Positions 18,836-62,014 of a stretch of 64,000 nucleotides of DNA are shown in pieces. Each line of letters opens with the position of its first letter. Position 1 is the stretch's first letter. Made by a program: the position numbers and the translations under genes. The DNA comes from Frondihabitans australicus. Its GTDB lineage: Bacteria; Actinomycetota; Actinomycetes; Actinomycetales; Microbacteriaceae. Under the pieces are notes generated by a model. It ran no database searches, was not told where the DNA came from, and saw nothing but the letters and a program-made list of their open reading frames with translations. The DNA lies in NCBI RefSeq assembly GCF_003634555.1, contig NZ_RBKS01000001.1:310001-374000 (forward strand), given 5' to 3'.

Positions 18836-19609
18836 GTGACGCCCGGGAATCAGGGACCCGACGCGCCCATCGAACGAAGGATGATCGTGCCAGAAACGAC
18901 GACGGACCCGACTGCTGCGAACGAGACCACGACCGGGCGCCCGCCTGCCCGTCAGGTGCGCGTCGCGATCGTCGACGACCACGAGTCCGTCCGTCTCGGC
19001 ATCCAGGCCGCCTGCCAGAACGAGGGCTTCGACGTCATCCTCACCGCCGCCGGCGTGCAGGAGTTCGTCGACAACCTCGCCGGCCGCGAGGTCGACGTCG
19101 TCGTGCTCGACCTGTCCCTCGGCGACGGCTCCACCGTGACCGAGAACGTCAAGCGAGTCCAGGCCACCGGCTCAGCCGTTCTCGTGCACTCCATCGCCGA
19201 CCGCGTCGCCTCCGTGCGCGAGGCGCTCGCCGCCGGTGCCGCCGGCGTCATCCCCAAGTCGTCCGCGACGAAGACCGTCATGGCGGCCGTCGCGACCGTC
19301 GCCCGCGGCGACGTGCTCAACAACCTCGAGTGGGCGAGCGCCATCGACGCCGACCGCGACTTCGCGAAGGCGCAGCTCGGCCGGCGCGAGCGCGAGATCC
19401 TCCACCTCTACGCCTCGGGTCTGCCGCTCAAGCTCGCCGCCCAGCAGCTCGGCATCGGCTACTCGACCGCCCGCGAGTACCTCGACCGCATCCGCGTGAA
19501 GTACGTCGAGGTCGGCCGCCCGGCGCCGACGAAGGTCGACCTGCTCCGCCGCGCCGTGGAAGACGGCATCCTGCCGGGCCTGGATGCGGACGGCGGCGAT
19601 GGCCGCTGA
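18836..19609 (+). CDS. response regulator with LuxR/NarL-type DNA-binding domain
   Basis: A 257-aa two-component regulator. The receiver domain (about residues 42-165) has acidic residues in VAIVDDHESV, the phospho-acceptor Asp in VVVLDLSLGDG and the Lys in VIPKSS. The C-terminal helix-turn-helix is REREILHLYASGLPLKLAAQ onward, LuxR-like but with a diverged tail. Starts: GTG 18836 (leaderless), or GTG 18887 with GAAGG upstream (240 aa). The kinase gene overlaps its 3' end by 11 bp, so the pair is cognate. A divergent N-terminal Thr-rich tail is unusual. Confidence 0.9.
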   Translation: MTPGNQGPDAPIERRMIVPETTTDPTAANETTTGRPPARQVRVAIVDDHESVRLGIQAACQNEGFDVILTAAGVQEFVDNLAGREVDVVVLDLSLGDGSTVTENVKRVQATGSAVLVHSIADRVASVREALAAGAAGVIPKSSATKTVMAAVATVARGDVLNNLEWASAIDADRDFAKAQLGRREREILHLYASGLPLKLAAQQLGIGYSTAREYLDRIRVKYVEVGRPAPTKVDLLRRAVEDGILPGLDADGGDGR

Positions 19610-20867
19610 CGAACCCTCCGGGGTTCCCTCCTCCCTCCGCCCGAGGCCCGCGCGCAACCCGATCTCGGGCCCCCTGCTCGACAAGATCTTCGCGCGCGCC
19701 CTCTCGGGCCTCGGCATCGTGTTCGGTCTCGAGGCCGTGCCGTTCGTCATCGCCCAGCAGTCCCACATGCAGGAGGCCTGGGGCTGGATCATCTCCCTGG
19801 CCATCTTCGGCGGCATCGCGGCCGTCGGCGTCGCGAGCCTCATCATGCGCGGCCTCGAGACGGCGGCCGCGTTCGTCGCGATCTCCTTCCTGGTCGCCCT
19901 CATCACGTGGCCCCTGGCGGTGCAGGATCCCACGGCCGTCCAGCCCCAGGTGCCCTGGCTCTGGTACCTGGTCACCGTGGCCACCTCGGCCGCAGCGATC
20001 GCGTTCTCGCTCTGGGTCGCGACCGGCTACCTGTTCCTCGCGCCGATCATCTACGGCCTCATCCGCCTGACGCCCTCCGGCGGCGGCGCCGACCCGCTCC
20101 GGGCCGGCCTCGACGCGGCGTACTCGATCATCCTGGGCGGCGCCGTCCTCATCCTCATCACGCTCCTGCGCCAGGCGTCGCACGCCGTCGACTCGGCGCA
20201 GAGCATGGCCGTCGCCCGCTACTCCGGCGCGATCCGCGAGCACGCCACCGAGCTCGAGCGCGTCCAGGTCGACGCGATCGTGCACGACAGCGTGCTCACG
20301 ACGTTCATCTCCGCCGCGAGGGCGTTCTCGCCCGACGAGCAGGCGCTCGCGACGACCATGGCCAGGAACGCCATGTCGCACCTCACCAGCGCGGCCTCAG
20401 TAACCCCCTTCGACGAGTCCTCGACGTCGCTGCAGTCGATGCGCGAGCGGATCCGGGTGTTCATCCAGAACCTCGGCGCCGACGTCGAGATCCGCGCGAA
20501 GGGCCTCGACGACCACACGATTCCCGCGGCCGCGGCCGAGGCTCTCTACTCGGCGGCCGTGCAGGCCGTGGTCAACAGCGTGCAGCACGCCGGCGGCGAG
20601 GAGATCTCGCGCTGGGTCAGCATGAACTGGGAGCGCGAGCAGGTGCGCGTCGAGGTCGGCGACACCGGCTCCGGCTTCAACCCCGCGGCCGTGCCCGGCG
20701 AACGCCTCGGCGTCCGCGTCTCGATCACCGAACGCCTCGCCAACGCCGGCGGCGAGGCCGCCATCCACACCAAGACGGGCTCCGGCACCGTCATCCACCT
20801 GACCTGGCCGCGATCAGAACCCCGCCCCGCCGCCGTCCCCACCGAGCTCCAGGAGGACGCCTCGTGA
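19599..20867 (+). CDS. membrane sensor histidine kinase
   Basis: Likely partner of the upstream response regulator. From ATG 19599 (422 aa; ATG 19584 also possible) it has about six membrane helices in residues 35-195 and no obvious extracellular domain. The probable phospho-acceptor is the His in VDAIVHDSVLTTF at about residue 229, in the HisKA_3-like H-D context. The ATPase domain keeps the N box (AVQAVVNSVQHAGG, near 325), the G1 box VEVGDTGSGFNP and G2 GERLGVRVSI. The C-terminal overlap with the third gene (GTGA) ties the three together. Confidence 0.88.
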   Translation: MAADEPSGVPSSLRPRPARNPISGPLLDKIFARALSGLGIVFGLEAVPFVIAQQSHMQEAWGWIISLAIFGGIAAVGVASLIMRGLETAAAFVAISFLVALITWPLAVQDPTAVQPQVPWLWYLVTVATSAAAIAFSLWVATGYLFLAPIIYGLIRLTPSGGGADPLRAGLDAAYSIILGGAVLILITLLRQASHAVDSAQSMAVARYSGAIREHATELERVQVDAIVHDSVLTTFISAARAFSPDEQALATTMARNAMSHLTSAASVTPFDESSTSLQSMRERIRVFIQNLGADVEIRAKGLDDHTIPAAAAEALYSAAVQAVVNSVQHAGGEEISRWVSMNWEREQVRVEVGDTGSGFNPAAVPGERLGVRVSITERLANAGGEAAIHTKTGSGTVIHLTWPRSEPRPAAVPTELQEDAS

Positions 20868-21982
20868 ACGTCAAGCTGCCCCGTTGGCTGCCGATCGGCC
20901 TCGCCGCACTCTTCTCGCTGTACCACCTGCTGCTCGCGGCGGTCTCGCTCACGACGCCTGCGCATCCTGCGCCCATCGTGGTCTGCATGGTGCTCTACGC
21001 GGGCGCCACGGCGCTCACCCTGTGGCCCTCGGGCATCCGCAAGAACATCACCATGCCCGTGTGGATGGCGTGCCTGTCGCTCGCCGTCGCAGTGATCCTG
21101 CCGCTCGCGGTCGCGTCGCAGCTCGATCCTCACGCGAAGGGCGGAAACGGCTACGCCACCTGGTACGTCGCCGCCGTGGGCACGCTGATGGTGATCGTGT
21201 CGACGCGTCGTCGTCAGGGCTTCGCCTGGGTCGGCGTCGGGTTCCTCGTGGTCCACTCGATCATCTGGTCGGGAGACTTCGCCGAGCTTGCGAACCTCGG
21301 CGTCGTCGGCAGCGTCAGCTGGGTGGCGATCTCGCACGCCCTCCAGGCGACGCTGGCCCGCGCCAGCCGCGACACCCGCGAGTTCATCCGCGCCGAGCAG
21401 GAGGCCGCCGACTGGCAGGCCGCTCAGGAGGCGCACGTCAACGAGCGCCAGTTCCGGCTGCTCCAGACCGGCCGCACGGCCCGCCCCATGCTGCAGCGCA
21501 TCGTCGCGACCGGGGGCGACCTGTCGCCGGAGGAGCGCCAGGAGTGCCTCAACCTCGAGGGCGCGATCCGCGACGAGATCCGCGGCCGTCGCCTCCTCAG
21601 CGACGACGTCCGGCGCGAGGTCATGGCCGCTCGCCGCCGCGGCACCGTCGTGAGCCTGCTCGACGAGGGCGGTATCGACGACCTCGACGACGACGAGCTC
21701 GACCGCGTGCACCGCGAGCTCGCGTCGGCGATCCGCGACGCGTCGGCCGACCGGCTCATCATCCGCACGGTCGCGGCGGGCAGCGAGTACGCCGTGACCG
21801 TCGTCGGCCTGTCCAGCGAAGACCTGCAGTCGTCGACGCTCGGATCGAGCCACGCCGGCGCGGACGACGACGATGAAGACGACCCCTACGCCGACGACGA
21901 GGACGACGACGGCGAAGACGAAGTGAGCCTGTGGCTGCAGATCCCGCGGTCGTCGGTGCCGCAGGAGCACGTGGACGCCTAG
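20864..21982 (+). CDS. membrane protein, probable degenerate sensor kinase partner
   Basis: A 372-aa protein starting with GTG in a 4-bp overlap with the kinase. Six or so membrane helices fill residues 8-165. A cytoplasmic helical part follows (ARASRDTREFIRAEQEAADW), then LLQTGRTARPMLQRIVATGG, placed like a DHp domain but without the His, then a segment ending ELASAIRDASADRLIIRTV, placed like an N box but without the Asn. No ATP-binding glycine boxes are present. The C-terminus is an Asp/Glu-rich tail (DDDDEDDPYADDEDDDGED). It looks like a kinase that lost catalysis and kept a sensing or scaffolding role. Function unknown. Confidence 0.8.
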   Translation: MNVKLPRWLPIGLAALFSLYHLLLAAVSLTTPAHPAPIVVCMVLYAGATALTLWPSGIRKNITMPVWMACLSLAVAVILPLAVASQLDPHAKGGNGYATWYVAAVGTLMVIVSTRRRQGFAWVGVGFLVVHSIIWSGDFAELANLGVVGSVSWVAISHALQATLARASRDTREFIRAEQEAADWQAAQEAHVNERQFRLLQTGRTARPMLQRIVATGGDLSPEERQECLNLEGAIRDEIRGRRLLSDDVRREVMAARRRGTVVSLLDEGGIDDLDDDELDRVHRELASAIRDASADRLIIRTVAAGSEYAVTVVGLSSEDLQSSTLGSSHAGADDDDEDDPYADDEDDDGEDEVSLWLQIPRSSVPQEHVDA

Positions 21983-22054
21983 CTCGTCCCCACGCCCGGC
22001 CACTGACCCCGTCGCCCGTCCCCGAGGGGGCGGGCGGCGCCCGTTAACGACCGA

Positions 22055-22080
22055 GGGCCGGACCCCCGAAGATCCGGCCC
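22055..22080 (+). terminator. hairpin after the three-gene signalling operon
   Basis: GGGCCGGA and TCCGGCCC arms (8 bp) with a 10-base loop lie about 70 bases after the last stop. There is no clear T tract. It is the first of a series of hairpins in this gap. Confidence 0.55.
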
Positions 22081-22091
22081 TGCACAAGCCC

Positions 22092-22320
22092 CGAGTCAGG
22101 GCGACAACCCGAATATCACCCTGACTCGCCGCCGAACAGTGACAGGCCCGCTTACCCTAGTAGGCCCCTGTTCGGTGGTGTAACTCTGAGAGAGACACCT
22201 AGCAACATCAATAATGCCGACGGGCCCCCCTCACGAAAAGTCGTCATTTAGGAGGACACTGGGGGGCAGACAAGATGGTTCGTTTTCGAGAAATGCCCCC
22301 CGTTATGGGGATCTTTCGGT
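22092..22320 (+). ncRNA. tandem-hairpin structured RNA, 6C-RNA-like 3' part
   Basis: Five hairpins follow each other in a 477-bp gap (21983-22459) between convergent genes: 10-bp stem CGAGTCAGGG at 22092-22128; CCGAACAG...CTGTTCGG at 22132-22175; GGTGT-AA-CTCT at 22177-22199; AATG-CGAC...GTCG-CATT at 22213-22248 with six C in its loop; and 22287-22318 with six C and GGGG followed by ATCTTTC. Two successive hairpins each with six C are the hallmark of actinobacterial 6C RNA, which would read on the plus strand. A -10-like TACCCT lies near 22153. The region is clearly less GC-rich than its surroundings. A 50-codon frame at 22275-22427 is possible but has poor spacing to AGGAGG at 22250. Identity with 6C RNA is from memory of the motif, not a model search. 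Confidence 0.45.
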
Positions 22321-22342
22321 GCGTGACATACGTGATGACACT

Positions 22343-22355
22343 CGAATGGGGGACA
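22343..22355. promoter_or_regulatory. operator-like site CGAATGGGGGACA
   Basis: The same 13 bases occur at 36173-36185, beside a lipoprotein promoter. Here the left half lacks the C run. Related sites are near 61868 and 61928. A target gene at this copy is not evident. Confidence 0.35.
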
Positions 22356-22459
22356 ATCCGGGTCGCTTTTGACCCCTGCCGGGGCACACGAGCTTGGCAG
22401 CGGGGCACACGGCCGTCCGGAGGATGACACGGCCTCACAGGGGCACGCGTCCCGAGCCC

Positions 22460-22759
22460 TCAGCCGTGGTGGCGGCCCCACTGGCCGGGCCCGGGCGTGA
22501 TCGGCTGCCGGAGGGCGCGACGGCTCTCCGACCAGGCGCTCTGGACGTGGGGTGTCACGACGGCGGCGGCCCGAGCGGCCTCCTCCGCAACGAGGGCTGC
22601 CAGCACGGCGGTCACCGCGGCGAGCTCCTCGGCCGAGGGGTCGCCCGAGACGACTCTGATCGCAGGATCGGCGGGAGCCCCGGCGGCATTCGAATCCTGC
22701 GCCCCCGGCCCCTCGTCGCCCGACAGCCCGACCGGGCCGGCCGCGTGCCGCCCGGTCAC
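22460..22759 (-). CDS. accE: acyl-CoA carboxylase epsilon subunit
   Basis: Small regulatory/structural subunit found only with actinobacterial acyl-CoA carboxylases. From GTG 22759 it is 99 aa and overlaps the beta-chain stop by 4 bp; the longer upstream frame is a shadow inside accD. After a variable Gly/Ala-rich head comes the family core [20 protein letters not shown], followed by an Ala-rich helix and a Trp (QSAW). Sequence conservation in this family is low, so the assignment rests on this core, size and position. Confidence 0.85.
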
Positions 22760-61943: not shown

Positions 61944-62014
61944 GGTGAACGCGTCTGTCTGCTTTGTACCCCGGAGCGTACCCCGCTCCGAACGAGAGAG
62001 TTCGGAGCTGGCGC

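Follow-up and report, generated by a model that had tools for sequence, protein, structure and literature searches.

A conserved predicted small RNA gene and its putative regulator site beside a signalling triplet in Microbacteriaceae

In Proteus mirabilis, the gene for the small RNA GlmY lies beside the three-gene QseEGF locus, in one operon with qseEGF, and its promoter contains putative sites for the regulator of that locus; the published account gives a QseF consensus of TGTC-N10-GACA, an overlapped sigma70/sigma54 site and effects on motility (PMC8745638). In Pseudomonas, GacS/GacA controls RsmX, RsmY and RsmZ, a palindromic upstream activating sequence is described as a potential GacA site, and the Rsm RNAs sequester RsmA proteins by means of several unpaired GGA motifs (PMC2375449). 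Among actinobacterial RNAs, 6C RNA is described as having two stem-loops, each typically with six C residues (PMC4046766), and Ms1 as an RNA of about 300 nt (PMC11077062) whose gene adjoins that of a HAD-IB hydrolase (PMC9130861).

The locus considered here lies in a window of 64,000 nucleotides from Frondihabitans australicus, the whole stretch of DNA that was analysed. A gap at 21983-22459 is flanked by a signalling triplet on the plus strand and by the genes for acetyl-CoA carboxylase (ACC) epsilon (PF13822) and a carboxyltransferase (PF01039) on the minus strand, and the gene annotation of the window bears out the convergent arrangement that had been reported for these flanks. The triplet consists of a response regulator (18836-19609) with a receiver domain (PF00072, E 4.6e-15) and a LuxR-type helix-turn-helix (PF00196, 20.6 bits, under its cut-off), which we propose as an activator; a sensor histidine kinase (19584-20867; PF02518, E 6.6e-9; top NCBIfam match MacS, far under cut-off); and a third gene (20864-21982) for which searches of Pfam and NCBIfam gave no family match, and which is present in 145 of 199 Microbacteriaceae genomes at E<=1e-10. 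Identity of the response regulator is 65-93% in those of 40 compared regions that hold the gene, and 47-62% in regions from small genomes and from genus g85, which we take to be Microbacterium. The gap had been called AT-richer, which is true of 22100-22399 (GC 0.56-0.57) but not of its 5′ portion (0.68-0.73).

The preliminary description of this DNA saw six consecutive hairpins in the gap, the last two exposing CCCCCC, and proposed either a 6C RNA with a long 5′ extension or a larger undescribed RNA. Four of these hairpins (22055-22080, 22092-22128, 22132-22175 and 22177-22199) do fold beyond chance: for the segment 22051-22205, z is -5.58 (minus strand) and -6.66 (plus strand), with none of 200 shuffles as good on either, and the whole gap reaches z = -4.55 (plus) and -3.05 (minus), with none of 100 shuffles as good on each strand. 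The last two (22213-22318, plus strand) fold like shuffled sequence. Their CCCCCC runs exist, at 22225-22230 and 22296-22301, but 22205-22330 gives z = -1.12 on the plus strand, a value equalled or bettered by 28 of 200 shuffles, and they overlap a conserved site on the other strand; we regard them as promoter-region DNA outside the RNA.

A 6C RNA with a long 5′ extension would account for the two CCCCCC runs on the plus strand and for a hairpin block that folds well on that strand as well as on the other. The 6C covariance model, however, has no match in 21900-22520 at E<=10, and the C6 runs lie upstream of the RNA and on the other strand, if strand is judged by the G-U bias and the T tails described below. 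The best 6C match of the genome lies about 71 kb away, at G000:C1:260980-261057 (L001:1501-1578); this separate candidate, with two CCCCCC loops and TCTCTTTT as its tail, has the appearance of a 6C RNA. With the C6 part of the gap folding no better than chance, we consider the 6C reading of the gap extremely improbable. Since the candidate elsewhere scores 39 bits against a cut-off of 47, 6C RNAs of Frondihabitans may escape the Rfam threshold; the candidate diverges from a frame on the other strand that reads like an acetyl-CoA synthetase. In the whole window, Rfam 15 had no match at gathering score, with only chance-level matches in the region below it, and a search of five relatives returned one chance microRNA match only. 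The RNA is likewise not described in the titles or abstract openings of the literature matches listed. Most of the hairpins thus noticed appear to be parts of an oppositely oriented small RNA gene and not of a 6C RNA; the suggestion of a larger undescribed RNA holds, its strand being most likely minus and the C6 part its promoter region.

Folding energy leaves the strand undecided because both strands fold strongly, and it is the plus strand that has the stronger z. In the minus-strand reading, on which the alignment was fitted, there are 199 G-U cells against 39 A-C cells, and T-rich tails (at least 5 T in 12 nt) follow the last hairpin in 68 of 100 rows, as compared with 2.3% of random stretches. 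Together with the −10 box and the upstream site, these features make the minus strand a well-supported assignment as far as sequence goes. Against it, simple scans of the region found no terminator on either strand, and the only promoter site they gave is on the plus strand (22186-22215, 9/12); of 111 model matches, 11 fell on the complement strand, at 36-46 bits.

As predicted, the gene occupies 22051-22205 on the minus strand (about 155 nt), with the model start at 22205 and the terminator end at about 22051, and its covariance match scores 138.1 bits and covers the model completely (1-152). Helix P1 (22177-22199) has the form GGUGU...ACACC with an inner CUC/GAG; both covariation and free folding yield it. 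Helix P2 (22132-22175) is a variable stem with the apical region ACUAGGGUAAGC at 22150-22161, seen by covariation, row alignment and free folding, and P3 (22092-22128) is a helix of 15 bp closed by the heptaloop UUCGGGU at 22107-22113, and ATTCGGGTT fills these columns in every one of 100 aligned rows. Helix P4 (22054-22081), a putative terminator hairpin with a poor T tail in Frondihabitans australicus, closes the conserved block in the minus-strand reading; it is GC-rich, and its stem varies in sequence with pairing kept. When the window copy was folded freely, by itself, P1 to P4 were recovered.

The covariance model, R1, was built from 31 sequences, and the alignment comprises 100 matches including the window copy, of which 97 are distinct, some being one genome under two names. 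Pairing is kept in 97.2% of 4217 cells, and two-sided changes occur at 40 of 44 pairs, figures that are favoured by the fitting of the alignment to the model; shuffled controls gave 83.0% and 21.7 pairs, and slid structures 35-47%. The heptaloop UUCGGGU is also found, with other closing pairs, in six g85 regions, four of which R1 misses. Most members carry AGGGUA in the P2 loop, a count that is biased for loci from L130 on because the search pattern used for them contained the P2 loop; the P3 loop was absent from that pattern. Conservation of the block as a protein-coding frame, which the preliminary description had considered, was not seen across the 100 rows, where open reading frames of at least 25 codons occur in 40 with differing start columns; a small protein was therefore rejected. 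The relatives supply the covariation that an RNA would be expected to leave, and the structure and family of the RNA are, at the level of sequence comparison, well supported.

The gap is matched in all seven Frondihabitans genomes, our own included, and a 301-base core of it in 173 of 299 Microbacteriaceae genomes. R1 finds matches at E<=0.1 in 138 of 199 sampled Microbacteriaceae genomes, covering 57 of 85 genera. In a sample of the order, 18 of 396 genomes gave a match, 16 of them in Microbacteriaceae and two outside, at 40.9 and 18.7 bits. The first of these two (G663; L129/L084, L129:7038-7173), from another family, has P2 and the heptaloop region, while P1 and the triplet are absent; by eye, it overlaps the start of a frame resembling a chemotaxis receptor, and it was rejected. 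Neither the second (G377, L086) nor a match of 24.2 bits in g85 (G671, L085), on a contig other than that of the third gene, was counted as a member. Triplets of response regulator, kinase and third gene (28-47% identity) also occur in other families of the order (L351-L357), with no acceptable R1 match nearby, and one record carrying the RNA pattern (L183) is titled Acidobacteria bacterium MAG G2_35, probably a mislabel, as its contig has the same length as one from a Microbacteriaceae genome of our set (G071).

Whole-genome searches with R1 under-call. A local re-search took in 8 of the 16 genomes that had the third gene only at E<=1e-5: five of these (G039, G113, G169, G110 and G167) have matches of 26-44 bits at the expected place, and three (G015, G018 and G099) keep the triplet with nothing acceptable to the local search (best E 4.7). 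Three small genomes with the triplet and without an acceptable R1 match have a TGTCCCCC word and, by eye, short hairpins in the same gap. The g85 regions L358-L361 have no R1 match, yet there an upstream TGTCCCCCGAAAT word is present and, by eye, a P3-like hairpin with the same heptaloop.

The RNA had been suspected of a connection to the signalling triplet that it follows, and here the comparison of genomes is favourable. The RNA adjoins the third gene in 37 of 40 regions, for which nine genes were searched; the three others are a region with a covariance match only (L099), one at a contig end (L115) and the one from another family (L129). Among 199 genomes, and without correction of the counts for phylogeny, the third gene and the RNA (E<=1e-5) were both present in 129, the RNA only in 2, the third gene only in 16 and neither in 52; at E<=0.1 for the RNA, the corresponding counts were 130, 8, 15 and 46. 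The strict table leaves out weak RNA-only matches in G043, G051, G098, G121, G159 and G175 (E 1.2e-4 to 5.8e-3) and scores a weak match in G162 (E 0.039) as absent. Its two RNA-only genomes, G023 and G103, belong to one genus and keep the order RumA-RNA-accD with the triplet gone, an absence that refers to the locus and, for G103, to a genome that is 66% complete. Beside their RNAs, the best match to the upstream site TGTCCYCCNAAATGACGAC has 9 and 8 mismatches, respectively. As triplet and site were lost jointly in one genus, this counts as one event.

The position of the RNA could also be read in another way, as a cis element or antisense transcript, either opposing the third gene by read-through of P4 or serving the accD-epsilon genes as their 3′ UTR or terminator. 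It does follow epsilon in the same orientation and is directed towards the 3′ end of the third gene. However, it has promoter-like and terminator-like elements of its own, it is inverted in L271 and L272, and its distance to the third gene is 2.7-7 kb in L269, L270, L274 and L275 and about 20 kb in G179, all of which make a role in cis improbable. A distance of 3.5 kb was found even within Frondihabitans (G004), and the region L273 has no triplet within 20 kb of the RNA, its third gene being about 20 kb off. Structure, conservation, linkage and the conserved upstream site are read directly from the sequences. Synteny and co-occurrence support the tie of the RNA to the triplet, and the promoter site gives it less firm support.

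Upstream of the RNA, across 67 distinct regions, a −10 box is conserved (CATTAT at 22211-22216 on the minus strand; A with 1.81 bits and T with 2.00 bits at two key positions), whereas positions −30 to −12 are not, and there is no conserved −35 box. In 94 of 100 rows, the 140 nt that precede the RNA contain the site TGTCCYCCNAAATGACGAC with no more than 4 mismatches. Its start lies 50-54 nt ahead of the model start in all 94 and at exactly 53 nt in 68; the pattern was written from part of the aligned sequences, and the rows were picked by the RNA and not by the site. Among 2000 random windows from the same loci, none matched at 4 mismatches or fewer, the best having 5. Of the six remaining rows, L136 is cut by a contig edge, and in the others the mismatches number 5 (L189 and L177), 6 (L131), 7 (L109) and 8 (L265). 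In the window, the site reads TGTCCTCCTAAATGACGACT (22239-22258, minus strand); it is the sole match at 3 mismatches or fewer, with 0.02 expected, and we propose it as a response-regulator site that overlaps the −35 region. A second, weaker half-site copy lies 11 bp upstream (22262-22269, minus strand), where positions −64 to −57 carry 0.3-1.3 bits. We infer from this anatomy a promoter of the activator-dependent type. Further upstream, an inverted repeat, ATGCCCCCCGTTATGGGGAT, spans 22293-22312 and holds the second C6 run; it is kept with changes in seven Frondihabitans rows and resembles a hairpin near the sigma-gene site described below.

Whether the neighbouring regulator reads this site is another matter, as the RNA could be real and trans-acting with its site read by a different regulator, the triplet being merely an old neighbour. 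Adjacency alone proves little because the whole neighbourhood of accD, Maf and RumA is conserved. Moreover, the site is poorly matched in some triplet-bearing regions (7 mismatches in L109 and L099, 5 in L262 and L276), the first two having no recognisable site, and it is still carried where the RNA lies kilobases away from the triplet (L269, L270, L273, L274 and L275). On the other hand, in a comparison of 40 relatives at 2 mismatches or fewer, the site was present in 15 of 18 triplet-bearing and in 0 of 7 triplet-less Microbacteriaceae genomes, and in 1 of 15 genomes outside the family; the reversed site gave one match each in 2 of the 40. In 13 of the 15 triplet genomes the site is at the RNA, and in two (G008 and G022) it is elsewhere. 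The site is also unrecognisable beside the RNA where the triplet is gone. We therefore regard a different regulator as a rather unlikely account, and control by the neighbouring regulator, which may read the conserved promoter site, is suggested by site position, synteny and co-loss.

If the regulator does act on this site, a few further genes could belong to its regulon. In our own genome, the 20-mer site occurs 6 times at 3 mismatches or fewer, its occurrence at the RNA included, and the reversed control 0 times. In all seven Frondihabitans genomes, the same sigma factor gene has a second site, with 0-1 mismatch, 223-250 bp ahead of its start codon; the distance of this site to any −10 box is unlike that at the RNA. 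The copy of this gene in our genome has FliA/WhiG as its best NCBIfam model (E 1e-39, 136.6 bits, cut-off 189.6), and with this sub-cut-off match as the basis for calling it FliA/WhiG-like, a flagellar role is a candidate. Between the site and the sigma start, a short CCCC...GGGG hairpin stands in all seven (L318, L319, L320, L321, L307, L308 and L309), with TTT or a longer T run behind it (at least 4 T in four of the seven); this hairpin may serve as an attenuator or belong to another small RNA. A GH18-like lipoprotein gene (PF00704) in our genome has a site with 3 mismatches to the 20-mer, and a look-alike gene with a site is found in G003.

The heptaloop, too, is found elsewhere in the genome. 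A site at 1764408, with 2 mismatches to the 19-mer, has within 150 nt a long hairpin with the same heptaloop, before a GH16-like gene; by rough arithmetic (18 words, 8 Mb, five sites, 200 nt) the coincidence of site and heptaloop word, hairpin aside, comes to 0.2%. The word ATTCGGGTT occurs 18 times in the genome, against once for the reversed word, and is flanked by 15 stem pairs in the RNA itself, 17 at L301, 7 at L290, 6 at L293 and 1-5 at the other fourteen; those folded were L290, L293 and L301. Besides the RNA, L290 is the only such word near one of the 20-mer sites of the genome. A target search of our genome with the complement AACCCGAAT gave one match that falls after a ribosome-binding-like sequence and just ahead of a 78-codon frame (L286), and L292 contains a near copy of this stretch; for a target of the RNA, this is too little evidence. 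A tandem TGTMCCCC pattern was dropped as too loose (18 matches, 8 reversed), and a tandem TGTACCCCGGAGCGTACCCC with 2 mismatches to it lies at 61965-61984 of the window. As regards the idea of an MraZ box, mraZ was located in the genome.

Taken together, we propose that the minus-strand gene would give a structured small RNA of about 155 nt, and that TGTCCYCCNAAATGACGAC, at about −53 to −35, would bring a bound activator into contact with RNA polymerase. The LuxR-type response regulator, controlled by kinase and third protein, would bind the site and switch the RNA on; it would also act on a few other site-bearing genes, including, in Frondihabitans, that of the FliA/WhiG-like sigma factor. 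The RNA would act in trans through its exposed loops, foremost the invariant UUCGGGU of P3 and, in most members, the AGGGUA of P2, which could pair with target RNAs or hold an RNA-binding protein. Trans action through the loops is suggested because the heptaloop is invariant while the stems drift in sequence; transcription and its strand, regulator binding and activation are predicted in the same way from sequence comparison. For this explanation as a whole, a regulator-activated, trans-acting small RNA with the heptaloop as its effector, we estimate a probability of about 0.58. A wider picture is possible but doubtful, namely a riboregulatory pathway across Microbacteriaceae in which the dedicated triplet has the small RNA as its main output, the heptaloop module is shared with at least one other transcript of the regulon, and the regulator, through the sigma gene and the heptaloop RNAs, steers motility and surface enzymes in a Gac/Rsm-like manner.

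To our knowledge, a regulator or a mechanism has been established for few of the small RNAs of actinobacteria. Here, the likely regulator is encoded in the adjacent triplet, the promoter site is defined, covariation backs the structure and the heptaloop is invariant across Microbacteriaceae; with all four in hand, control, partner and target become directly testable.

Compared with known actinobacterial RNAs, the one described here resembles 6C RNA (RF01066) as an actinobacterial sRNA with two apical loops, but those of 6C are C6 loops, whereas here they are GGGU loops, and the model does not match. With Ms1/scr3559 and the CoRP RNAs, as far as published accounts describe them, it shares being a structured actinobacterial sRNA recognised by a conserved gene neighbourhood, whereas its length and neighbours differ; identity with Ms1 or CoRP was rejected on the grounds of other neighbours or range. 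Microbacteriaceae are absent from the families with Ms1 candidates listed in Table 4 of PMC9130861, and an RNA that replaces Ms1 there is therefore conceivable, that is, a Ms1/6S-like RNA that binds RNA polymerase. Nevertheless, we find four hairpins in 155 nt as opposed to the roughly 300 nt of Ms1 (PMC11077062), there is no Rfam match, and in the window the neighbours are the triplet and the ACC epsilon/carboxyltransferase pair and not a HAD-IB hydrolase (relatives were compared with the neighbour genes of the window only), which makes this reading very improbable.

A two-component-controlled sRNA would be expected to have a regulator site in its promoter and a discrete transcript with its own promoter and terminator. 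For the RNA favoured here, the comparison shows a conserved candidate site at a fixed distance, unrecognisable in two triplet-less and a few triplet-bearing genomes, and conserved promoter-like and terminator-like elements with no conserved frame. Its two conserved loops, UUCGGGU and mostly ACUAGGGUAAGC, contain no GGA, whereas the Rsm RNAs are described as having several unpaired GGA motifs; the likeness to Gac/Rsm, as that system is outlined in PMC2375449, would lie in a two-component system with a putative site upstream of the sRNA and in an unpaired repeated motif as the active part of Rsm. Similarly, GlmY and QseEGF, as presented in PMC8745638, provide the example of an sRNA gene that adjoins a three-gene signalling locus with a candidate regulator site in its promoter, whereas here the regulator is of the LuxR type, the site and the RNA are different, the genes are convergent and the setting is Actinobacteria. 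By the features tested, the RNA belongs to neither system, and in wiring, as far as these accounts describe it, its closest counterparts are GlmY with QseEGF and Gac/Rsm.
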